64,000 nucleotides of DNA from Polytrichum commune. Lineage: Eukaryota > Streptophyta > Polytrichopsida > Polytrichales > Polytrichaceae. The stretch is from contig OX485805.1 in NCBI GenBank assembly GCA_950295325.1, positions 18,525,501-18,589,500 of the forward strand, written 5' to 3'. Shown piece by piece: positions 16,255-59,317 of this stretch; within the stretch, counting starts at the first letter, position 1, and the number at the start of each line of letters is the position of its first letter. The position numbers and the translations under genes were made by a program. The notes below the pieces were generated by a model that was given only the letters and a program-made list of their open reading frames with translations, searched no databases and was not told the DNA's origin.

Positions 16255-19200
16255 GTAAGTATGTCGACAATATAAGCGTAGATGTGTGTTATTTGGATGT
16301 GTTCCTCTCTGCACCCACTTCCTCATAGGTTATGAAACATGCAATCTGTGTGAGATGATTAGCAAAGTATCCAAATCGTGCACATAAATCATTAACCTCA
16401 CAATGGCCGACAACTAACTTCGGATTTAGATATGTAACTAAGTATCATGTTGACAATATAACGTAGACGTGTGTTATTTGGATGTTTTCCTCTCTGCACC
16501 CACTTCTCATAAATTACTAAACACGCAATCAGTGTGAGATGATTAGCAAAGTATCCAAATCGTGCACAAAATCATGAACCTCACAATGGCCTCTTGGAGG
16601 TGGACAACGAACTTTGGATTTAGATATGCAAGTATGTTGACAATACAAACGTAGACGTGTGTTATTTGGATGTTTTCCTCTCTGCACCCACTTCTCATAG
16701 GTTATGAAACACGCGATCTGTGTGAGGTGATTAGCAAAGTATCCAAATCGTGCACATAATCATTAACCTCACAATTTTCACAGCTGATATGAATATCTTA
16801 TTCAATATCAAAGTGAAGATTCTGATGCTCATTAAGTGGTCATTTAGGTCTCCCCAATCATGTTGACTATTGAGCCTCGAATGGCTAGCATATCTTGAGC
16901 ACGTAGTCCAATCTCTTTTAAACACATGTCTATTTGGGTGTCCATTCTTAGATTCACACTTAAACCACATTCTACTCAAATATAGGTGCCCATATTTTTT
17001 CTATGTTTGATTTAGGCATGTCTACTTCAACATTGTTGAGCTTCTTTATGGGGCCATCCCTAGATGAGGAGTCAAAGCCATTGGAGGACGTTGAATGGAC
17101 CCATTCCATATGCAGTATAGTTGCAAGGAGCTTACATGGATCACTATATTCGTTAATTGGAGACTTTTTCATGATTTGGAGACTAATCAAGGACTTCAAG
17201 TTTGATATTGTGTTTAGTGCATGTTTTGATTATGATATAGATACTTATTATATTTAGAAATATATGTACTCCTCATGCATGAATATGTAGAAAGTTCACT
17301 ACCAATGTTCCCCACATTCACAATATTGCATCCCAAACTATGAGTAAAGTTTATTTTGAGACTTTCCAAAGTCTCCAATTTACGAATATAGTGATATGGG
17401 TTAAATACACTTACCTTGAATATGCTAGCTTGTCTAGATATGTTATGCAACTTCCCTTGTTTATGTTGGGTACGGAGTATAATAATCTAGTGGCGAAATT
17501 TTAATTATTTGGATGAGAATAATGTTTTGTAAGGCCTAGCTCAGGTGAAACCATGAGTGCGCCTATTATGGACCTTTTGAGCATTTCGGAATATGTGGGG
17601 GTTTGATAACAAACAAATAGAAACTACATGAGCACACGAGAATGAAAGGAGCATGAAATTTGTAATAGATGGAGTCCATGTGAATGTCTTGTGGATGCTT
17701 GAAATGAAACTCGTAGATGACGTTTAATGGATTTATTTCTTATAAAACATACTACATACTTAATCAGATATGTGTACATTAGGAATTTTTATGAGACAAG
17801 ATGGTGTTGCAATTAGTTTGTTGAGCTATGACAAAGGTTTCATCAGTTCATGGATCCAAGATTTTGCATACGTTCATATTTCGGGCTTTTATGAGGATAC
17901 ATTGACGATCAAAGGATCAGTACTTTGGTCTGGAAAAGGGGGCTACAAGGTTGTTGATGTTTCATATCTGATAGTCTGATGCAGGGAAGCCTACTATGTC
18001 GATGTGGCCTTTGGCACTAAGGACAGAATGAAACACTTTTTTCTGCAAGTTGACACGGGAAGCGGTGTTAGCTGGGTCCATTGCAAGTTTGGCAAGAGTC
18101 AAATTCTACACTTGGTAAAATCGCCTTCTTGTAAACAAGTCAAGTTTAACTGAATGAAACCATATAACTTCAAATCTAATGTGACTCAATAATATGTCAA
18201 CATTGTATTTTACTAACATATGCAAAAATTAGGCCCATCCTGACAGTCAACTGATGAAACCCCATTTGTTGTGTGTATTCTCCTCATGTTTGATGGAGGT
18301 TTGATAAGAATTAGTTCAATTCCAAATCATGAAGTTTGTGAGCCTCTGATAATGTGTGACCTTCTTCAATCTACTTTCATGTAGAGTTTTTGAAACTGCC
18401 TAGAGTCCAAAGTGACAATCTGGACGTGCTTGACCATCCAGAGTTAAGTTAGTACACCTAATCCTCGCTTCAAATACTAATGCAGGGTCCCAATGGACTA
18501 TATAACCCTATTTCAGCCATGTATGTGAACTGTAAGAAAGACAAACAATTATGTAAGGTTTTCCAAGAAGGGGACCCATCTGATTTACCTTGCACTAAGG
18601 AGAAAAAATACAAGTGCTTCTTCACCCATGAATATGGTGATGGTTTGCGTGTAAAAGGAGCAATAATCGAGACACCAGTGACCTTTGCCCTTCAAGATGG
18701 GAGCATGGCCAGTACTACTATGGCAATCGGGTCAGTGATCATCTCCTCTGCTTGCTCACATTTTTCTTGCCAAACAATCCACATTATGCTAAACATCTAG
18801 TTTAGTGTGACATTAAGATTCGTACTATGCCATGTTAAGTAGAGTGGCCTTTGTGATATGTTATGTAGCATCACCTATTGTATGTCATCCTCTGTAGTTG
18901 CCACTCAACGATTGCAAGATAATAAATGTGGGTCAATGATCAATAATGTAGGCCACATTGAATCAAATGTAAAATGTAGTCCCAACTAGTCAAGTTTTAG
19001 GAATTGTGAAGATTGTTCTTGTAGCCATTCATGTCAAAATGCAAGTGACCAATGTATAATGTTATGATGATACATATCATCCTTAGGGTGCTAACTTAAA
19101 CATCCAACTAATGATACATTCCAGACCAATTCAACTCATATATCAACCATTTATGCCTTGCTAGTGCGGTACACAAATGGCTACACAACTTTTGTTGCAT

Positions 19201-35777: not shown

Positions 35778-36249
35778 AGCACTGTATCAAAGGGCTAGGA
35801 CTCTATGTTTCCCGACAATTTAAATCTAAAAAAGTACCAAATTAATACTGCATTCTTGCCCCTTTTTGTGGACAAGCAACCGGATTCCTACAAACACCCA
35901 CCTTAGCTTCGAGTTGAACTAGCAAGCTATAAATCTCCTCCGCCAACTTGAGGCCCAACATTTGGAGTATTATCCTCGTCAACGGCGACTATTTGTGTGA
36001 CTATGTGGTGGGTGCAGGCTCCATGGATAAGAACAAAACATGGAGTTGCAGGGTACTTAGAATTTGGGAATGTGATATTTAGTGTCACTTACTATTTGGA
36101 ATTATGCAATGCTATAATTGTTTATTATACATCTCATTTGTTTTACCAACACAGGTCGAATTCGTTGTTTGGACATTATAGAACATTAACATCTTTGCGT
36201 GGTGAAAATTTACATTAATGATACAAAGATGTACTAGGAATGTGGTGTA

Positions 36250-36874
36250 CAGTAGCACCATAGTTGGTTCGTGCACCTCGAAACAAATGTTTGTTTGTTT
36301 TTTGAAAAATAAGGTTCGTCAACTAAAAATATTATTTTGTGAAGTTTCGTCAGTCCTATAATTTTAAAAGATTTAATTCGTTTTTTTGGTAAGGTCCAGT
36401 AGTGTTGGAAGTAGGTTGTTGTTTTTTTTCATTCATTCGTGGCGATTTCTTGGTCTTAAACCTAAGTATCCACCTTAACCTTACTTAGTGTGGCTCTTGT
36501 TTGTCTTTGCACAGTGTAATATGTGTTAGGTCTTTTTGTAGGTATTTGCACTTTGACATGTGTGAGAAGAGTGTTAGAAATGGCACCAAAACAACGACAG
36601 GTTGATTTTGCTTTGATCCCTATTAGCAAGGAGGAGAGGGAGATGGATATAGAAAGAGAGTTTGCCGCTTTGAGTGAGTAGGGTGCCGAGCCATTAACGC
36701 GTTAGCATGCAACCTCTTATGGCACGTTGATGTGGTTGGAGCTTAGAAGAGTCCAAAATTTTCACAAATTAGTTTTTTTCCTAATATAATTTTTCACTTA
36801 TTCGTTTGATTGGGTTCATAATTTTTGATTTTTTTTGGGAATTATTTTTGCACAAACCGGCTATGGTGCTACGG
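36250..36874 (+). mobile_element. Internal-deletion derivative of a pogo-like element
   Basis: Terminal repeats CAGTAGCACCATAGTTGGTT and the inverse of CCGTAGCACCATAGCCGGTT, flanked by TA (36248-36249, 36875-36876). At 36580-36681 it keeps the first 33 codons of a transposase (KQRQVDFALIPISKEEREMD) that align with the start of the enzyme at 54020 (about 19 of 31 residues identical by eye), ending at a TAG. The rest of the gene is gone. Confidence 0.85.
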
Positions 36875-37284
36875 TAACTCATAATAAAATAGTAGTGTAA
36901 CATGTAACATCATGAAATAACACAAAGTGCAACATTGTGATGCTAAAATTGATGATGCATACATGGGACACGAATAATCTCCCAAAGTTGCACACATTTT
37001 GCAAAGCTCAAATTTTCTAGGATTTTTTTGTTCAAATTTTATAACAATATGTAAAAATTGGTGAGAATAAATACATGTATAAAGATTAATTTAACACATA
37101 TAACATGTACGAAAAAATGTTCACTATTTACCATGAAACACGAACCTCTTGATATTAGGCTTTTGAGGTCACTGTTTTTTTCTAGTGTCAAATTACATGA
37201 ATGAATTTTAATACTGCCATTGATACTGCCACTGCAACCACCATAGCCAAAGTTTATGTTGCCATGCTTCAAGCTCTCTTTGGC

Positions 37285-37580
37285 AAAGTATGCATCACAT
37301 GAAGGCCATCGCAATGTCGCACAAGAACAAGCGAAGAGCCATGCATGACATCCACAAGACCTTTGTAATTTCAGTTCAAGGTTAATAACATTGGTTTGGG
37401 TTGGATTGCAAGCACTTGTGATTGATGCGTGTCACATGTGAGAAGGTGTGTGTCACATGGAGGCCATCGCATTGTTGCACGAGATCAAGGAAGGAACAAT
37501 GGGTGACATTCGTAGGAGCCCCTTAATTTCACGTCACAATTAGAATCATTGGTTTGGATTGAATTGCAAGTGAAATGGAT
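37285..37580 (+). repeat. Diverged tandem duplication, about 150 bp
   Basis: Two units (about 37285-37430 and 37436-37580) share CACATG-AGGCCATCGCA, TGTYGCACRAGAWCAAG, TGACATYC and ATTGGTTTGGRTTGRATTGC. No coding function recognised. Confidence 0.6.
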
Positions 37581-38393
37581 TTTGGTGCAAAATCATTTGC
37601 TTGGGGTGGGAGCAACAACCACAAATCTTTTGCTACACATTCATTATCCCAAATTCTTCAAAGCTTTGAGTTATTAATTCATGTTGCATGCATGTTTGTG
37701 GAACCATTTCATCCACAAAAGGTGGTAGAATTGTATGTGAATTCAAGAGCGTGAAGGCAAAGTTCATGACACGCAATAAATCCCAAGACTTCAAGTTGAG
37801 TTATGGTGCCAACTTCGCTTACCCCTTCAACAACAAAGTCTAAGACATTCAACAAAAATCTCAACCATGAAGACTGGATGCTTCCATAAACCCCTATAGT
37901 GGCATGAGGATGCATCACTACAATTATTACAATTCAAAGGAACTACCTCTTTGATAAACCCAAAATAAAATGAAAGCCATAAAAATTTCAAAGAACAACA
38001 ACGACCTTGACTTTTTAGAGAGATTTGACATATGGTGACCCTCAAACCAAAATTTGGACGCCCACCACCCCACTTCTTAAACTTGACGCATGTCCACTCT
38101 CAAAAAAACCCACATGAGTGGTAATATTCCCAACCTCTCATTTCACGAAGCTAAAACATTTCAAGGCTGGGATTATGTAGGTAAGGAGGGGAAACAACAT
38201 TGAAATGAATTTTGAAACACACATTGCATCTTCAACATGCCAATTTTTTTGACCTACATGTGGTTTGATCTCTGAAGGTAATTTTCTTTCACAATGTGCA
38301 GTGACCTTCAGTGATCATCTTTGCACATCAACTCAACTATGGTTTTTCAAGTTCATCAAGCCCTCTCAAAGTCTTTGCTCTCTGCTTCCTAAA

Positions 38394-38425
38394 CGCCCCC
38401 TAAACCCTAAACACTAAACCCTAAC
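38394..38425. repeat. Interstitial telomere-like run
   Basis: CCCTAAACCCTAAA plus degenerate ACTAAACCCTAACC, the plant-type telomere unit. Smaller runs occur at 9224 (AGGGTTTAGGGTTTAGGG) and 34606. Confidence 0.6.
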
Positions 38426-38610
38426 CCCCCTAATGCCTGAACCATGAAGGTAAATTGTTAAGAGAAAAAAATAACACGTAATAAAGGTAAAATGGATTGA
38501 GGTAATTCTACTACTGTTGTTTATGGTATTTAATGTCACTTACTATTTCAAATTACACAATGCAATTACATCTTAGAATAGACTTTAATTTTTTACTTTC
38601 AAAGGTTGTA

Positions 38611-39747
38611 CACCCTAACCTTGATAATGTCACACCCTCCGTTTCACCAAAAAGTGTGATATAAACAAGGTGTGACATACTTGATAATGTCACATTTTGT
38701 GCATAATGTGATATTATCAAAAAAATGTAGAAAATCAAAATATAATTACAATTTTTAAAAAATAACAAATACGAGACTTCAATGTTTTTTAATGTAAAAT
38801 CTAATTCAAAATTATGAATAACAACAAGAGCACATCATAATGTGTCATTGAGATCAGGTAAAGACCTCTCACTAGAGACAAAGAAGCTTCTAATGTCACA
38901 TTGTTTTGTTGATGTTAGATGTGCAACACCAATTCTAATGAGTTTGTCATGGATTTTTTCCATTTCTAACAACTCATGAGTGCTGAAAATCTGAGAACCT
39001 TGGCTAGCCATAAAATTCAAAACATCTTTAGCATATTTTTGTGCATCGCTTAGCTTCACTACTTTAGATTCATCATCACTGCTATCAACAATCAATGGGT
39101 CCACTTCCATGGAATCAAGAACATGTTCGCCATCTTGCACTAATTGCACAAGCTCCTCAGTAGAAAATTCCACCTCAAAATCATCTTCACCTTCCATGTT
39201 TATGTACTCCAAAGGACAAAGCTTTTCTACAGGCTTGCCTTCGACATCCAAACCCAAATTTAATGCGGCGATGAGTCTACCCAATTCCAAAGTTGCTTCC
39301 TCCATTTTGGACTTCATACGTTCATCAAGATCGTTTATATCTGCATTCCACTCTGCAGGCAATATGGCGGACTTTCTCCAACAATTTCTAATGGTTTGAT
39401 CATCTAATTTGAAATTACACAAGGCATCCCACTATGCTGAAAGCATTGAATGAGAGCTCATTCAATGACCCCCAATATGCTTTGCTTTAGCCCATGCTCA
39501 CCCATGAACAATAATATCAAACCCATGCCCACCCATTATAATATCGAACCCATGCCCACCCATACAATCCATCCATACTTGATATTATCACATTTACACT
39601 ACGGATTTTGAAAAAAAATAGTGACATTATCAAGGGTGATAGGGATAATAACGAGGGAGTTTTACACTATGAAAATCGGTTTCAAACTTTTAGGTAACAA
39701 TATCAAGGTGTTCTATTAACAAGGGTGACATTATCAAGGTTAGACTG
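38611..39747. mobile_element. Tigger/pogo-like deletion derivative, copy 1
   Basis: Ends CACCCTAACCTTGATAATGT and (inverse) CAGTCTAACCTTGATAATGT, flanked by TA (38609-38610, 39748-39749). It contains only the C-terminal part of a transposase on the minus strand. A 1045-bp sister copy is at 49176-50220. Confidence 0.88.
38835..39422 (-). pseudogene. Tigger/pogo-like transposase, C-terminal part only
   Basis: 195 open codons. Near the start, FKLDDQTIRNCWRKSAILP is the TI.NCW.K.GI.. signature that follows the DDE domain in Tigger/jerky transposases. An acidic tail follows (SMEVDPLIVDSSDDESKVVK) with a C-terminal STKQCDIRSFF. The DNA-binding and catalytic domains are absent, so it cannot transpose by itself. 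The frame is intact although the element is defective. Confidence 0.8.
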
Positions 39748-40472
39748 TATAGGTTGTTCATATAATATACACATAACATGAATTACTTTTCTTGGTAAAA
39801 TATGACATTCTCAATAAATAACTATAGCAATGTGTAACTCTAGATAGTAAGTGACATTGCATACCATAAACGGTGTAGTGCTTCCTCTGAAGCATCCGGC
39901 AACAAGCAAAACTAAACCATGGTATATGGGAAAGAAACATGACAACAAGGACTGAGATTTAAACTGAGAACATCCATTTCCTAGGGTTCCAGGATATAAG
40001 AGGAGTGACCGTAAAGAGGGTGATATTACGGAGGTTAGGGTGTAGTGCAAAGGTCAGAAATCTCTGTATCAGTTGGAAGTGCACACAACAAATATATATG
40101 TACGTACTTGCCCTACATCTTAGATTTGCTACTACTTATGTGCAGCACTCGTGGTTAAGAAGTTAAAGGAGTGTATCTAGGTGTAAAGCTTGGATTCCAG
40201 GAAGGAAAAGTAATGTAAATTATTCTCTGGCTCATCATTAGGTGGGAGCAGATGGAAGGTCGCGTCCACCGTCGATGGAGCCGGTTGCTTGCTGGGTCAC
40301 TTGTGCACAAGACCAGGGACTCAAACCCAAAGTAGATAATCCTATATTTAAGTTAATACCTACCAAATTTCATGATGGCACCAAAATTGCCAACGACCAT
40401 GAGAAAGACACAAGGTAACAAACAAAGAAGAAAACAACATGAGTCGTACCCTTCGGGGAGCTCCTTACAGCA

Positions 40473-40745
40473 CCCCACCACACAAAGGGACCCAGTATCT
40501 AGAAAGATGTAGATGGTACCATATCCACCTATATGTGAGAGTACGACATCTACCTAGCACCTAGATATTGGGACTGAAGCCATGAACTAAGTTGAGGTCG
40601 CCTGTGAAACCTCTGATGAAAGAACGAACATGTGTCACAAAGCCCAAGAGCCACACCACACGGAGGCCCAATATCTAGGAACTGTATAGATGTTTGTATA
40701 GGTGAAACTAGAACATCTCCCAGAGTCTAGATTTTGTGACATAGG
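40473..40745. repeat. Two copies of a short fold-back repeat
   Basis: Units near 40473-40590 and 40655-40745 share CACCACAC..GG.CCCARTATCTAG, GTAGATG and an inverse CTAGATATTGGG-type end; a third unit is at 41628-41740. Each folds on its CCCAATATCTAG ends. Confidence 0.5.
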
Positions 40746-40982
40746 TGGCCACGAGCTGGGTCCACCCGATGCCCATCATCTCACGTAATTTCCATCAGAA
40801 AAGAGATTGTGGCACACCTTTTAAAACTTTCGAGGACAATCTACATTGAACCACACGACAAGCATACGACATTTTCTCTTACTAACATTGGATGTGCCTC
40901 AATGCGAGGACTTGTTGATATCTTGCCGCTGGGAATTAGGAGGGAAGTTTTCAGGCCCATGTGACACCACCGACGCAATGTC

Positions 40983-41532
40983 CGGGGAGATTTTGGAGCA
41001 TATTTTCCAGTCAAGGTCCTAGTGTTTCCAAGTCCAACTGGTTACATGTTGTGGTCTTTTGGTTTTTCGTTTATCAATTTGAGGCATAATAGAGTTATCC
41101 TTTAACTCAAAGGAGTTTGGTAGGGAGTTTCTTACAAAACCTTCCATGTTTGGCAAGCTTGAGGTGCATGCGTCGGAGGTCGTGTGGAGGTTTGAACCAA
41201 TAACATTCTACATGAGGGAATTGAGGGTCAAACTCATTTTAGCAATGCATGCGGTGCTAAAATGAGTTTGACCCTCAATGAACCGATATAGAATGTTATT
41301 GGTTCAAACCTCCACACGACCTCCGACACATGCACCTCAAGCTTGCCAAACATGGAAGGTTTTGTAAGAAACTCCCTAACAAACTCCTTTGAGTTAAAGG
41401 ATAACTCTAATAATATTCTATAAATTCCTCTAAAATTCTTGGTAATCTTCCTAAAGACATCTTGAACTCCAACCGGTTATTTCTCAAACTCAACCGGTTC
41501 ATCTGTAATTAACTAAGCACCCGGTTCTCCGC
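40983..41532. mobile_element. Family C copy 5 carrying a long hairpin
   Basis: Left CGGGGAGATTTTGGAGCAT, right CCGGTTCTCCG. A 320-bp inverted duplication (41090-41409) occupies the position of GGGGTATATTCT in copy 1. Confidence 0.65.
41090..41409. repeat. Long perfect-length hairpin, 155-nt arms, 10-nt loop
   Basis: The left arm 41090-41244 and right arm 41255-41409 have equal length and are almost fully complementary. A single clear bubble lies around ACATGAGGGAATTG versus ATATCGGTTCATTG. The loop is ATGCATGCGG. The right arm aligns with the open frame at 21763-22065 (TGGAAGGTKTTGTA, GAGTTAAAGGATAACYCTAA). A transcript through it would be an hpRNA/miRNA-precursor-like duplex. Confidence 0.9.
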
Positions 41533-48790: not shown

Positions 48791-49175
48791 GGGAGTTCTA
48801 AGGTAGATGGTGCTTAATGAACCAACACTTTAAGCTATTGCACATACATATGGCTACATGGTTGATTATAAACATATATACACATATTAGCCTTTGTTCT
48901 AAACATAGGAGGACATCGGGTTGTTGGCATTACGAACGGACACTCTATTCACGCCGGCCCCTCAAAGGGACCGGAGTTTCTATCTATCTATCTATCTGAA
49001 CATAGGTATCAAGAAAGAAAACATATTTTTAGCCTCAATTAGATATTTGATGAATATTCAAAGTCAAAATCACTAGCTTCCTTAAATTAATATATAGACC
49101 ACTGTGTATGACGACCTTAGATATGATGACGATCCCCACTCTCATTGCCTAGAACCAACACAACATAGTTGAGTA

Positions 49176-50220
49176 CACCCTAACCTTGATAATGTCACAC
49201 CCTCCGTTTCACCAAAAAGTGTGATATAAACAAGGTGTGACATACTTGATAATGTCATATTTTGTGCATAATGTGATATTATCAAAATATATGTAGAAAA
49301 TCAAAATATAATTACAATTTTTTAAAAAAAACAAATACAAGACTTCAATGTTTTTGAATGTAAAATCTAATTCAAAATTGTGAATAACAACAAGAGCACA
49401 TCATAATGTGTCATTGAGATCAGGTAAAGACCTCTCACTAGAGACAAAGAAGCTTCTAATGTCACATTGTTTTGTTGATGTTAAATGTGCAACACCAATT
49501 CTAATGAGTTTGTAATGGATTTTTCCATTTCTAACAACTCATGAGTGCTGAAAATCTGAGAACCTTGGCTAGCCATAAAATTCAAAACATCTTTAGCATA
49601 TTTTTGTGCATCGCTTAGCTTCACTACTTTAGACTCATCATCACTGCTATCAACAATCAATGGGTCCACTTCCATGGAATCAAGAACTTGTTCGCCATCT
49701 TGCACTAATTGCACAAGCTCCTCATTAGAAAATTCCACCTCAAAATCATCTTCACCTTCCATGTTTATGTACTCCAAAGGACAAAGCTTTTCTACAGGCT
49801 TGCCTTCAACATCCAAACCCAAATTTAATGCGGCGATGAGTCTACCCAATTCCAAAGTTGCTTCCTCCATTTTGGATTGAGCATTTGGACTCCGAAACAC
49901 GTACCAAATTTGAAATTACACAAGGCATCCCACTATGCCGAAAGCATTGAATGAGAGCTCATTCAATGACCCCCAATATGCTTTGCTTTAGCCCATGCTC
50001 ACCCATGAACAATAATATCGAACCCATGCCCACCCATACAATCCATCCATACTTGATATTATCACATTACACTACGGATTTTGAAAAAAAATAGTGACAT
50101 TATCAAGGGTGATAGGGATAATAACAAGGGAGTTTTACACTATGAAAATCGGTTTCAAACTTTTAGGTGACAATATCAAGGTGTTCTATTAACAAGGGTG
50201 ACATTATCAAGGTTAGACTG
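49176..50220. mobile_element. Tigger/pogo-like deletion derivative, copy 2
   Basis: Same ends as copy 1 (CACCCTAACCTTGATAATGT and inverse of CAGTCTAACCTTGATAATGT), flanked by TA (49174-49175, 50221-50222). It is about 92 bp shorter; the deletion removed the TIRNCWRK coding part. Otherwise it is nearly identical to copy 1, so both moved recently. Confidence 0.88.
49481..49900 (-). pseudogene. Tigger/pogo-like transposase tail, copy 2
   Basis: Encodes the same acidic tail (KMEEATLELGRLIAALNLGL, SMEVDPLIVDSSDDES). It lacks the upstream signature because of the deletion, and a 1-base loss near 49517 shifts the last residues out of frame. Non-functional. Confidence 0.8.
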
Positions 50221-50222
50221 TA

Positions 50223-53310: not shown

Positions 53311-54019
53311 GAAAAATTTAGCCAATCATATTGGCTATTACAGTGATATTTTCATATACCTTGTGCAATCTTGGCTTGAGAAAGGGGGGGCAAATTATTC
53401 AATCTATATGTCCCAGATGCTAAGGATTCTAAATCGTATATGTCAATATTTCAAGAATTGGCAAAAAAAATGCTTCCTTAGAGATCTCTGTCATTTTGCC
53501 ATACCTAGCCCCAAGCCCAGTATACCATCAATAATTACAGCAACTATAAGAATTCAACGACCGATACAAATAATAGATTAGTTTTTCATAATTGAATCAA
53601 TGAGAATTTTTCTTAGTATAATTACGCTTCAGACGCCTAATGACATGAAGGATCATAAGGAAACCAACCATGTAAGCAACTACCGTAATATTATAGCAGG
53701 TTCGTCACCTGGCGAACGAAGATTTATTTTTTTTGAAAAAAATGTTCGTTTGCTAAAAATAGATTTTTTTGAAATTCGTTATTTTTTGAGGAAAAAAAAA
53801 TTCGTCTTGGAACAAAGTAGATGTACCGGGATGACAACTTAAATTGATATTTTCATCCATTTGTGCCGGGTCCCCTTGTTGAAACTTAATTTTTTGCCCT
53901 AATCTTGCTTAACCTAAGTACTTTCACTAAACTTGTTGTAAATTGTATGTCTTTTCTGTTTGCACACTTGTATGTATTTGTTTTTTGTTGTGTGTAAGTG
54001 TACAAGAGAGAAATTAGCG

Positions 54020-55810
54020 ATGACTCCCAAGCAACAAAGGGTAGATTTTGCATTTGTTCCTATTACAAAAGAGGAGAGGGCGGTGGAGATAGAGAAGGAG
54101 TTTTCAAGTTTGGACCAGAGGTTAGAGGAGGAGCGCTCAAGACTAGGCAAGGATATTTTGAAACGACCAGTGGGGAGACCAAAGAAGACAGAGATGGTGT
54201 TGTTGAAGCCAAAACTTGAGAAGATGAAGCGATCAGGAAAGGTTAGAGGTTCCTACACAAACCGGTTTACTCCAGTTCTTTGGCCGCCTATTTTCAATGC
54301 AATGAAACAACATAGATACATTGTAAGAACTTTGAATTTCTTGAGGGCAGCTTACAAGAAACCAGAAGATCTCTCTAGTGTGTATGACAGTTTATCTAAG
54401 AATTCTATGAGAGGTTGGTTCCATTCAAACGGAGAGCTGAAAGATACATACAAGAGATGTGTAGAATTTGGCACTTACTTTGCCAAATCTGCTCAACATT
54501 GTCCAGTGTTAGAATCTCACCCTGCCTTAAAAGAAGAAATTTGCACAGTCTTGAAGAAGATGAGGATGGCAGGACAACCTCTTTATGCAGTTTGCATCCA
54601 ACCATTAATAAAAGCAATCATCCTCGACAAAGCTCCACAAATTCTTGAAGGTACACATTCAACAGCTTTTCGTGTCTCTTATGAATGGACCAAGAATTTT
54701 GTCAAGTCTGAATTGAATTGGAGTTACCGAGCATCAACAACTGCAGCGGAAAAATTACCAAAAGACTTTGAAGAACAGGGCAAAGCAATGACACAACGTT
54801 GTGCATATTTGGTGAAAGTTCACAACATTTCTAAGGAATTAGTTGTGAACTTTGACCAAACAGGGATACATTTAGTACTTACAGGAGAATCTAGGACGTG
54901 AGAGACAAAAAAAACCAAACATGTCAAGGTACACGGAGCAGAGGACAAACGACAAATTACTGTTACAATCTCTTCAGCAGCAGATGGTCGTTGTTTGCCT
55001 TTCCAAGTAATTTTCCAAGGCACAACCACAAAATCTCTGCCTAAGTTAGAAGGAGGGAGAGAAGAGTGTGAATTATCAGGGTGGAATATTTCCTACAGCT
55101 ACAACCACTGGTCTACATTAGAAACGTGCAAAGAGTTTGTAGAGAGGATTCTTAAACCTTACTTGGTTGCACAAATTGAGCTCAAGGCACTTCCAACAGA
55201 TCAAAAGATGATCTGGCTCATAGACTGTTAGAGTGTGCACATTAGCAAAGAATTTCGGGAGTAGATGAAGATTCATCATCCCGAAATTCATGTGCTCTAC
55301 ATTCCTGCAAACTGTACAAGTGTGTTTCAACTAGCGGATGTTGTCATTCAAAGGCCCTTCAAGTATGCCTTTCGTCAGGAATTCAACCAATTTACTATGG
55401 ATACTATAACAAAGCAACTAAATGGAGGATCAGATGTGCACATTGATTTCAAAATGTCCAAGCTAAAGCCTCACATTTGTCATTGGCTTTACAAGGCTTG
55501 GATTCATGTTTCAAGCAAAATCAATATGATTAGCAAAGGATAGGAGCAAGCTGGACTTCTAAGAGCATTTGACAGTGAGTTTCAAAAACAAGCTATGATG
55601 GATAATATGGTAAAACCATTGTTTAACAGCAAAGGAGAAGAAGGAGTGCAAGCTACAGATACAGAATGCAATGAAGAGCTTGACGTCGAAGTGTCTTTAG
55701 ATACTATAATGGAGAATAATTTGAGCAGAGTGGCAGAACTTTCCAAGACAATCAACTCAAATCGAATGACAACAATACGGGAGCTTACAAGAAAAAAAAA
55801 AATTCACTAA
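54020..55810 (+). pseudogene. pogo/Tigger-like transposase, interrupted by four stops
   Basis: A single frame of 596 codons. It begins MTPKQQRVDFAFVPITKEER (start chosen to match the derivative at 36580). It has an AT-hook-like RPVGRPKK and a helix-turn-helix region around FLRAAYKKPEDLSSVYDSLS. The catalytic D residues are in VVNFDQTGIHLV, WLIDC and CTSVFQLADVVIQRPFKYAF, the DDD arrangement of pogo enzymes. In-frame stops lie at 54899 (TGA), 55229, 55262 and 55541 (TAG). At least three occupy places where a Trp is expected, so simple G-to-A changes explain them. No frameshift was seen. It cuts and rejoins DNA at TA sites when intact; this copy is dead. Confidence 0.85.
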
Positions 55811-55884
55811 GTTCTGATGTAAGTTTTTCCCACTGAAGTTTTATTGCATTCAAATTAAGTGTTGCTTTAGTACATGTACTTACA

Positions 55885-55920
55885 CATCATCTATCTTTCT
55901 ATCTTTCTATCTATCTATCT
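55885..55920. repeat. ATCT microsatellite
   Basis: Run of ATCT/TTCT tetramers. A similar TATC run is at 48979-48998. Confidence 0.8.
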
Positions 55921-56446
55921 TCTTACACTCACAGACATGTCTATGTGCAAATTCAGTTGCTAACTTGCAAGACACATCACAAGTACAAAAATAGTCAACA
56001 ACAAACAAATTCAACATTTGCTTCAATTGTAATCTCGTTCAAGCTATCACCAGTTTTGTAATCACAAGCCCACGGCCCCTGCATGGTCATGGTCACGGCC
56101 ACAACATAGTTACGACTTATGTTTCTGCTGGATCAATTCAGCTTGCTAAACTGTTTTCAAGTTGATTCTTAACCTTTCAGGTAATTCTTTGAGGACAATG
56201 GGCCGAGAGAACGACTTATGTCTCCCTTAGGCAGGTCTGTGATGATTGGGATGCAGGCATGATTCTACAAATATTAGACCGCATGATGTAGGAATCAAAA
56301 AATAATCCATTGTTGTGCAGTACATCTCTTCAGAGGTCAGATCTTGAGTTGAGTAGGTCAGAAATTTCACGTACCAAGCTAACATCGACAATTTTGCGTC
56401 TCTCACTCTACAACTTTGAGAGCTGAAAGGACATGATTTGCATCTT

Positions 56447-57179
56447 ATTTGGCCCACTGAAATGCATTGTCCAGTGCTTGCAAGGATCCAGATACAAATG
56501 GCGCTAGAGGATTAGGATCAGAAGCTATTCACCAACCAACAGGGATCCTGACGGTGTTTATACCACTGTTTGCAAGAAACTCGAAATCAGCCTCTTGGAT
56601 GAATGTGTCTCTGTGCTTCTACACAGGCACCAATTCAAAGAGTTAGTGTCACTCGATGAACCCAATTTTTTAGGCCAAAATTTGACATAAATCTACCCTG
56701 AACAAAAAACCCAGCACATGCAGAGATGAAAGACAAAATTCTGCTAGTCTCTAGATCATAAGGTCAGCAGCCACTCAATGTTGCAACAGCTAATTCATGT
56801 CTTGAAAAAAATTAGAGAGTCCTAAGAGAAAATGTTTCATTGCTTTCCTAGATAGGTGATCACCTGTAGATGGGGATGACTGTCACAGGTGAATAAGGGG
56901 TACGCAGTCAAGTCTGATACTCAAAGCACCCAGGTCCTTCTAAGTAGTGCAAAGGTCAAATGTCTACGCAGGCATGTAAATCAGGTGGACAGATCACATC
57001 AAGTTTCAGGAGGTTCCAATACTTCAAGATACTGATGGTAGATTGAAAGTTCACCTTATAAATAGCTGGTGCCGCTGAACCCTAGCCATTGGCAAGCTGG
57101 AAGTCACCACCCAGGGCAGTGTCAACGGTCATCAGGAATGTAACATCATTACTAGTCCATTCGGGATCTCCTTCAAAGT
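56447..57179 (-). pseudogene. Captured GH5 glucan 1,3-beta-glucosidase fragment
   Basis: Two exons on the minus strand with an intron kept between them. Exon A (57179-57055, acceptor CTGCAG, donor GTGAAC) reads DPEWTSNDVTFLMTVDTALG then GDFQLANG. Exon B (56618-56447, acceptor GTGTAG) reads DTFIQEADFEFLANSGINTV, RIPVGW and GSLQALDNAFQWAK. Both are landmarks of plant GH5 exo-1,3-beta-glucosidases (cell-wall glucan hydrolysis), in the right order. Breaks: TAG after LANG and TGA where the second Trp of VGWW belongs. The homology fades after WAK. Confidence 0.75.
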
Positions 57180-57435
57180 CTGCAGTAAGTTGATTTAAGT
57201 TTTTTGCCTGCACACCAACGATGTGAGCTTATAATTCAAGTTTACCCTCGCTATATGCTTTGAGAATATGCAAATAGTACAGAAATACGCTTGATTGACA
57301 AGAAAAAACCGAAGTTTCAAGGACCTAAGAGGATACGAGGGGGAAGAGCACGTAAGTAATTTTTAAAACTAGGAAATTCAAATCCTTGTGTCATTGGTTC
57401 GAGAGCTTCAGTAACAGGATGAATCAAAGTCCTAT

Positions 57436-57735
57436 GAGACGAAGGACATCCTGTTGTTGGATGTGGCGCCTCTGATGCTGGGAATCGAGACCGTGGGAGG
57501 AGTGATGACAAAATTGATCCCCAGGAACACCGTGATCCCGACGAAGAAGTCGCAGGTGTTCACGACATACCAGGACCAATAGTCGACGGTGTCGATCCAG
57601 GTTTTCGAGGGCGAGCGCAGTCTGACGAAGGACTGCCACGAGCTGGGAAAGTTGGATCTAACGAGCATTCCTCCCGCGCCCAGGGGCACCCCCCAAATCG
57701 AGGTGACGTTCGAGATCAACGCGAACGGCATTCCA
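57436..57735 (+). pseudogene. Captured BiP (ER HSP70) fragment
   Basis: 100 codons from [20 protein letters not shown] through [20 protein letters not shown] and [20 protein letters not shown] to [20 protein letters not shown]. This is the start of the BiP/HSP70 substrate-binding domain (roughly residues 415-515 of a BiP). One in-frame TAG follows YQDQ, where Gln is expected. G+C and third-position GC are far higher than the surrounding DNA, which marks it as foreign to the element. Confidence 0.9.
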
Positions 57736-59056
57736 GGTCCTTTGCTATAGTTCTACAAGCTGAAGGGTGCAAAGAAAGATTGGATAGTAGCCGGGCAGCA
57801 TGCTTCTGAATGTGGGTTGTAAGGGGGGCAATGGACTCCCCCTTGGCTTTAACTGGAGGCGTTTTATCTTGGTGACCTCCATTAGAAGGCTCAGGTGAAA
57901 CATCCTCTCTCTGGCATTCATCCTGTTCAGCAGCTGCCCATTGGTCGAAGTCATCACAAAGTAGGAGACGCCTCAGCAGACATAAACCACCTGCCTCTAT
58001 GATCCGCTGTCTGCTGACCTGTTAAATTGATCCAGATTAGCAACCTTGATGGAACTCTCATTCATGGTGAAAAGGGAAAGCAGCAACTAAAACATATATG
58101 ACGAGCATGGGCTTTGAAGCGCAACAAACCTGGTCCTCCGCTATTAACTCCGTCAAGGCCTTCACAGCTCTGAGTGTAGAATATAATATGCTGCCTCACG
58201 GGCTGTTACCTTCGGTACACTCTCCTTATTACCAGAAGAATGATCTTGAGCTGGGGACATATCAAAGCCTAGTAAGTCCACCATACGAAGCTCACGAGCA
58301 CTTGCTGCAACAGCTTGATCTGTCACTTTCGTTTCTGCACTTGAATTTTCAGCCTCACGTGCAACCACTTTTGCAATCTCTGATGCAGCAGCTGTTGCCA
58401 CTCACACTCTCTCACTCTACAATCAGCCACAGTACATCTACACTTGATCAATAAACTCTCCTAATCCCAGCATTTTCCATAATTCTTTATCTCCTGATCT
58501 GAAGTATACTTTGGGTGAAAACAAGTGTGCATCTGCAACATGTTTTTTCGAACAAACACACAGTAATGCGTCAATAAAAGGCATGGATATACCTGGACAC
58601 GATCTCTCTCCCTGGCCTCGCTGCCAGTATTTGAAGTTCCTTTACCTCTTCCAAGTTTTGGCTTGCTTTCAGTTACTATGTCCATCAGAAGCATAGCTAG
58701 CCAAGCTTGTGAAATTGGAATGCATCCTTGTCCTAGGTTATTCACCACACGATTCAAAACACGGCACCCGCAAGATCTTGCCAAACTATCTGGCTTGTGG
58801 ATGCATACCCATCTCAGAAGAATGGGCGACCATTTTTTGCCCTCGTCTAAGGAGAGCCCTGACCCAGCAGCTGTAAGCACATCAAGACTCTGTGCAAGTG
58901 CCCCCTGCACACTATCAGCTGATTCTGTCTGCTTGGCAAGGTCTCGAAGCAATGGAAGGTCTCACCACCTCCTCGGCCTCCTCTGACTGTGGATCTACCG
59001 GCTCCGAAACTGGAGCTGCGTCCTTCTCAACCACCGGTGTAGGTGCCTCCTCCGAA
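57736..59056 (-). pseudogene. Captured SERAC1-like ARM-repeat gene fragment with introns
   Basis: Minus-strand exons in order. About 59056-58593: EEAPTPVVEKDAAPVSEP, a +1 shift, then LLRDLAKQTESADSVQGALA and SPILLRWVCIHKPDSLAR to a GTATAT donor. About 58400-58210: ARELRMVDLLGFDMSPAQ. 58172-58130: RAVKALTELIAEDQ. About 58014-57736: SRQRIIEAGGLCLLRRLLLC and HIQKHAARLLSNLSLHPSAC. Wording and order resemble plant ARM-repeat alpha/beta-hydrolase (SERAC1-like) proteins as I remember them. Only the ARM part is present and no hydrolase domain. It abuts the BiP fragment tail-to-tail. Confidence 0.65.
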
Positions 59057-59317
59057 CAACAGGTGGCTAACAACAGAATACCCTAACGGACTTTCCAGCT
59101 CCTAAACCGTGATAATAGGATCTAGTGCGCTGTACTAGCCTGTGAAACTTGTAATGGCCTGCGAACAGAGTCTGCTTCACCCAATTTTCTGGATTTTCGT
59201 TCTTTTCAGAATATAATTTTCCATAATTTCGTTCTTCATGGCCTGGAATTTCTGATTTTTTTCGTTTTTTTTTGGAATTATTTAAGAACGAACCTGCTAT
59301 ATATGGTGTTACGGGTA

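Follow-up and report, generated by a model that had tools for sequence, protein, structure and literature searches.

The locus analyzed here raises the question of how pieces of three host genes came to lie within a single DNA transposon. It is located in the plant Polytrichum commune (assembly GCA_950295325.1, contig OX485805.1), in a stretch of 64,000 nucleotides (positions 18,525,501 to 18,589,500, hereafter the window), where positions 53683–59315 are occupied by a single TA-flanked element of a pogo-like (DDE_1) family. In this element, a mosaic copied from three genes has replaced the middle of the 3' non-coding region, with the ends and the transposase frame staying in place. The components, in window coordinates, are as follows.

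53681..53682 (unstranded): TA at the left end (target site); TA is also present at the ends of other copies
53683..53855 (+): 5' terminal block of about 173 bp, which also makes up the left half of a derivative only about 325 bp long
53960..55810, approximately (+): pogo-like DDE_1 transposase, one frame with four in-frame stops
55811..56147 (+): native 3' non-coding DNA of the family, lacking one stretch present in other copies
56148..57438 (-): GH5/DUF7910 glucan 1,3-beta-glucosidase-like fragment; parent C7:36441740-36443035, 98% identical
57436..57732 (+): intronless BiP/HSP70 fragment; parents C4:37643714-37644010 (+) and C4:37636781-37637077 (-), 96% identical
57729..58958 (-): SERAC1-like (ARM-repeat) fragment with introns; parent C1:10803879-10805103, 99% identical
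58959..58962 (unstranded): 4 nt belonging to neither side of the SERAC1/native join, either filler or what a small deletion left behind
58963..59315 (+): native 3' region and terminal block, from alignment with family copies
59316..59317 (unstranded): TA at the right end

The family was delineated by searching the 408-Mb genome (seven contigs of 42–78 Mb hold about 406 of the 407.8 Mb) with the first 601 bp of the element and with 234 bp of its right end. Both searches yield the same long copies, at least ten in all, namely the window copy and L010–L018; the best 40 of 292 and 40 of 141 candidates, respectively, were scored, so copy numbers are lower bounds. The left-end matches of the nine other copies are mostly 89–96% identical (one 56-bp piece, 86%) and the right-end matches 90–94%. 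Nine of the ten copies have both ends, and L017 lacks about the first 147 bp. Just inside the TA, the ends of the window copy match each other (CCGTAA...TATAGCAGGTTCGT and CCCGTAACACC...TATAGCAGGTTCGT). An earlier sequence-only reading of this locus had proposed TA-flanked inverted ends around 53683..59315, and the matching ends together with at least nine further long copies bear this out. The span between the outer matches is 5634 bp in the window copy, 4336 bp in L013 and 3401–6672 bp in the remaining eight, three of which carry inserts in or beside the transposase gene (about 1.0 kb in L010 and in L015, about 3.2 kb in L018).

Eight of the ten copies (L010–L012 and L014–L018, here called canonical) align with one another throughout the 3' region. 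The window copy tracks them from its left end up to 56147 and resumes at 58963, continuing to the right end; between these points, 2.8 kb of foreign DNA (56148–58958) stands in place of the common sequence. Because the eight canonical copies show family DNA on both sides of the insert site, the insert lies inside one element, and the possibility that 55.8–59.2 kb is flanking DNA caught between two unrelated partial ends falls away. The host gene fragments proposed downstream of the transposase are all present, but 55811–56147 and 58963–59315 belong to the family's own 3' DNA and not to the host genes. Accordingly, 58963–59082, considered as part of SERAC1, was rejected as such and is native repeat DNA of the family.

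A search with 55811–59182 as the query, in which all 21 candidates were scored, shows that three loci on as many other chromosomes (C7, C4 and C1) together tile the insert, with neighbours meeting within 4 bp. The match to C7 extends over 56143–57438 with 29 mismatches in 1296 bp and comprises two recognisable exons, the intron between them and flanking DNA of the parent, which encodes DUF7910 before and Cellulase after the captured part. The match to C4 has 11 mismatches in 297 bp, and in the BiP parent the frame is complete and open, with an HSP70 match that spans the whole profile. The two intronless BiP genes (L027, C4:37643714, and L028, C4:37636781) form an inverted pair with 100% identity across 2239 bp, pointing to recent duplication or gene conversion. 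The third piece matches C1 with 10 mismatches in 1230 bp and one 5-base gap. Its designation as SERAC1-like comes from the sequence-only reading and is supported by an ARM repeat (E 9e-5) and by an unnamed relative of 441 aa (P0036), of which residues 9–424 are matched by the parent and 19–314 by the insert; no Pfam family was detected in the parent at E 0.01.

The GH5 and BiP parents are open where the captured copies carry stops (in two places in GH5 and one in BiP). The GH5 and SERAC1-like pieces have retained introns, and the parents survive at their own loci; hence the fragments were copied from DNA and not from mRNA, as had been surmised from the window alone. Alignment to parents in the same genome also confirms the identity and strand suggested for each piece: GH5 (-), BiP/HSP70 (+) and SERAC1-like ARM (-). 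Given that the insert differs from its parents by 1–4%, misassembly is not a fair alternative. Matches to NAD-GH on the antisense strand were taken as a mirror of HSP70. A 15-nt direct repeat (56399 and 58408) was discarded as a capture footprint, both of its copies being inside parent-derived DNA.

One other copy, L013 (C2:47.48 Mb), has a mosaic of its own, different in composition but likewise including BiP, here in two pieces. The stretch tested was 1752 bp long, and all 13 candidates were scored. It consists of a piece from C1:69.09 Mb (95%), fucosyltransferase-like with an XG_FTase match below the cut-off (E 2e-4); then a first BiP piece (98%); a piece from C1:52.1 Mb (97%), a locus in which no domain was found in the three forward frames tested; a tandem filler of about 120 bp that partly resembles the latter; a piece from C7:26.66 Mb (93%), weakly HMA-like (E 0.2); and a second BiP piece (92%). 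Three deletions in the right native part are common to the window copy and L013 and are absent from all four canonical copies in that alignment (L010–L012 and L016); in the match list, the two show the same right-part gap against all eight canonical copies. They group in trees, with local support of 0.845 for the left and 0.999 for the right part, and differ by 5.1% in the left native part, and the 1-kb flanks of the window copy do not match those of L013. Since BiP and the private deletions are shared and the flanks are not, a BiP-carrying ancestor most likely jumped after the capture. Thus, the suggested search for further copies with the same ends was productive in that it turned up at least nine long copies, one of them with BiP, but none with all three fragments.

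The joins and the divergence of the pieces bear on how the mosaics were built. In the window copy, the strict overlap between adjacent sources is 0 at the native/GH5 join (with TTGC shared one base away), 3 at GH5/BiP (GAG) and 4 at BiP/SERAC1 (CATT), and there is a 4-nt gap at SERAC1/native. The four L013 joins considered, which leave out those of the tandem filler and the BiP-to-native join, show in order a 2-nt gap, overlaps of 2 and 4, and a 1-nt gap. Assuming equal base frequencies, the chance of overlaps of at least 2 bp at four of eight joins is 0.025, and that of at least 3 bp at three of eight is 0.006; the overlaps of 2–4 bp at four of the eight joins moderately support template switching. 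Divergence from the parents is 3.7% for BiP, 2.2% for GH5 and 0.8% for SERAC1. Changes of the C>T and G>A types make up 9 of 11 in BiP, 12 of 28 in GH5 and 27 of the 37 private changes in the native DNA of the window copy. When these are set aside, 2 of 294, 16 of 1288 and 9 of 1221 positions remain changed in BiP, GH5 and SERAC1, respectively, and the order of divergence vanishes. For this reason, and because BiP is CG-rich, the order of capture read from divergence is only suggestive, including the placement of the SERAC1 piece as the youngest, younger than the split of the window copy from L013.

We propose that these observations are best explained together by capture through template-switch repair, a jump of a BiP-carrying ancestor, later re-patching and decay, an explanation to which we assign a probability of roughly 0.85. 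Under this scenario, a break or excision gap would have arisen inside the element and been filled by DNA synthesis that moved from one template to another, in part where short words were shared, passing through unrelated genes and then back into the element. The ancestor carrying BiP would have transposed, and each descendant would have been patched again later, partly inside the older BiP piece. The fragments would have decayed afterwards, at least in part through the C>T changes that methylated DNA typically undergoes. Several observations weigh against this explanation. The transposase is broken, and the break in the DNA could have been an ordinary one and not the work of a transposase. Over the 203 columns of BiP compared, a single derived base is common to the window copy and L013. 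Among the 21 candidates, all of them scored, the mosaic of all three genes turned up just once, so it need not have moved in its present form. Strict overlap is absent from four of the eight joins. Finally, C>T and G>A account for just 1 of the 10 changes in the SERAC1-like piece, a misfit with uniform decay of methylated DNA unless the piece is young.

The strongest competitor attributes the mosaics to ordinary breaks that were patched without any involvement of transposition, with the element being simply the site of the break. Most single-copy Pack-TIRs of animals fit such gap filling, with internal breakpoints and microhomology, according to the consulted parts of the report on these elements (Tan et al., 2021, PMC8277862), and the replaced stretch is internal in the window copy as well. 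Against it stand the patching of both sister copies within one and the same 3' region and the interchromosomal sources, which that report links more to a transposition-linked plant model; we regard ordinary-break repair as possible but short of an even chance. A narrower doubt concerns the jump: had the window copy and L013 captured BiP separately, transposition after capture would be left without proof. Besides the single shared base noted above, the nearly additive differences over the 203 columns (9 for the window copy, 14 for L013 and 21 between them, some end columns of L013 being poorly aligned) point in this direction, and the identical inverted pair of BiP genes is perhaps a favoured template. 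Nevertheless, the two are sister copies with shared private deletions, and it is improbable that overlapping stretches of the same gene would be taken up by chance, so separate capture appears unlikely.

Fusion of neighbours (a macrotransposon), in which two nearby elements move as a unit that includes the intervening host DNA, is the model favoured for rice and maize Pack-TYPE elements (Gisby and Catoni, 2022, PMC8903248, in the parts consulted). It would bring in adjacent DNA from one place, whereas here three chromosomes have contributed pieces whose strands alternate, 3' DNA native to the element flanks the insert on both sides, and the parents fill the insert to within 4 bp. The two mosaics thus argue against neighbour fusion in this case and for copying from several templates, and we consider fusion very improbable. 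Helitron- and MULE-type (Mutator-like) elements are the usual gene capturers, and such an element nested inside the pogo element could have done the capturing. As the three parents tile the insert that closely, there is no room for its ends. A nested Helitron, CACTA element or MULE was rejected by a scan for exact inverted matches and hairpin-CTRR sites: within 55701–59250, there is no exact inverted match over 12 bp (imperfect pairs reach at most 25 nt at 72–79%), and the single hairpin-CTRR site is located inside BiP. Likewise, the long terminal repeats and 9-bp target duplication of Pack-MULEs are not seen in this element, which has TA-flanked ends. A nested element is the least probable origin of all.

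If capture by template-switch repair is correct, it is tempting, although we advance this only tentatively, to view the pogo-like family of this plant as a serial gene shuffler, in which elements with their transposase frame still present collect unlinked gene pieces, jump, and collect again inside the captured DNA, so that multi-gene mosaics grow stepwise. The window copy and L013 would then hold material from six loci on C1, C4 and C7, with BiP as the oldest layer.

The assignment of the transposase to the pogo group, made in the sequence-only reading, is corroborated by DDE_1 matches, catalytic aspartates and 35 database relatives, the best of which is 81% identical over 96%. The frame has no frameshift and retains its full length, broken by the four stops. 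DDE_1 (PF03184, cut-off 22 bits) is detected in two pieces of it, with E 4e-4 (20.3 bits, below the cut-off) and 3e-7 (30.5 bits), and scores 54.2 bits in the relative P0001. Of the three catalytic aspartates, D299 is nearly invariant, D422 is invariant, and the third, at 460, is present in 23 of the 24 rows reaching that position (judged by eye). The spacing of 37 residues between D422 and D460 is inside the range DD29-56D published for the pogo superfamily (PMC7386202, parts consulted), and the TA target site and short inverted ends typical of the group are found in the element. No CENP-B/HTH domain match was obtained in the window copy, and P0001 has a weak HTH_Tnp_Tc5 match (E 0.069, below the cut-off). 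Stops relative to P0001 occur in 12 of the 13 elements examined, including all ten family copies. A copy without stops over the length matched to P0001 belongs to a sister family, which appeared at 72–75% in the left-end search (L019, L020 and L022; L021 and L023 match partly). In the long 3' region of L020, no host gene was identified, the top Pfam match being below the cut-off (E 0.029).

Capture by related elements is on record. In the consulted parts of the reports, Pack-Mariners of rice and maize are Tc1/mariner-group elements with captured genes, resembling the window copy in their TA-flanked ends around host gene pieces, and 19% of those in rice combine several distinct loci; they differ in being non-autonomous, with Stow-type ends and capture explained by neighbour fusion (PMC8903248), whereas the ends of the window copy are pogo-like, its transposase is full length though broken, and its pieces from several chromosomes are joined directly. 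The gibbon Pack-Tigger1 is a pogo-group element with captured DNA (PMC8277862; grouping according to PMC7386202). Animal Pack-TIRs share microhomology at breakpoints and gap filling by template switching with our element but are unlike it in that 56.9% of the counted cases lie within 15 kb of the parent, and no mention of multi-chromosome mosaics was found in the consulted parts of that study (PMC8277862). Maize Ds2 and Ds-l4 are likewise DNA transposons holding intron-bearing gene pieces that were copied from a different chromosome, but they are of the hAT superfamily, with other ends and target sites (PMC3260210, parts consulted). Lemi-type pogo elements of land plants belong to the same superfamily and use a TA target, but are reported, in the parts consulted, from 23 eudicot species, with superfamily lengths of 1.2–5.2 kb (PMC7386202); the word "captured" is absent from the main text of that paper.

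The element has host gene pieces between cognate ends and parents elsewhere, as in Pack-TYPE or Pack-TIR elements, but it is not devoid of a transposase gene, as the frame is full length with four stops. As for the multiple copies that some Pack-TYPE elements show after capture, the whole mosaic is single-copy, and its BiP piece is shared with L013. Thus, the element works like a Pack-TYPE element without being a standard member. No account of a plant pogo-like element capturing genes was found in the literature searched, which covered neither most subscription journals nor any bioRxiv preprints, and to that extent the novelty suggested for plant pogo elements stands; given that Pack-Mariner and Pack-Tigger1 are already known (PMC8903248; PMC8277862, parts consulted), the claim is narrowed. 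What is new is a plant pogo-like element that retains a full-length, now broken, transposase and captures from several chromosomes. Gene capture is thereby extended to pogo-like elements of a plant, and two sister mosaics with surviving parents constitute a rare readable record of gene pick-up by DNA transposons.

Several further observations concern relatives and surroundings of the element. Direct joining of the left 173 bp to the right 151 bp gives a short derivative of about 325 bp (e.g., C2:24845818-24846142), which is found genome-wide, with at least 10 left-right pairs matched by eye between the two search lists. Searches for relatives yielded none in viral_contigs and one in genome_contigs, L001, distant but complete, of about 2.07 kb with 30-bp ends and about 100 bp from the stop to the right end; its contig is filed under a Dehalococcoidales metagenome-assembled genome and is probably a eukaryotic contaminant. 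In the 3.6- and 4.7-kb flanks of the window copy, the only Pfam matches were two weak ones below the cut-off (E 0.079 and 0.087), and Rfam and tRNA scans gave no match. Around position 18000 of the window, there is a plant aspartic-protease-like gene fragment (TAXi_N, E 7e-4, below the cut-off). The stretches 38608–39749 and 49173–50222 are 91–98% identical (705 and 344 bp aligned) and contain a frame resembling what we take to be the C-terminal part of another Tigger-type transposase; a Pfam scan of 36000–41000 gave no match supporting this name. Finally, a 625-bp relative at 36250–36874, with similar TA-flanked ends, the start of a transposase gene and three stretches 71–77% like the main element, is a derivative of a sister family resembling a miniature inverted-repeat transposable element (MITE).

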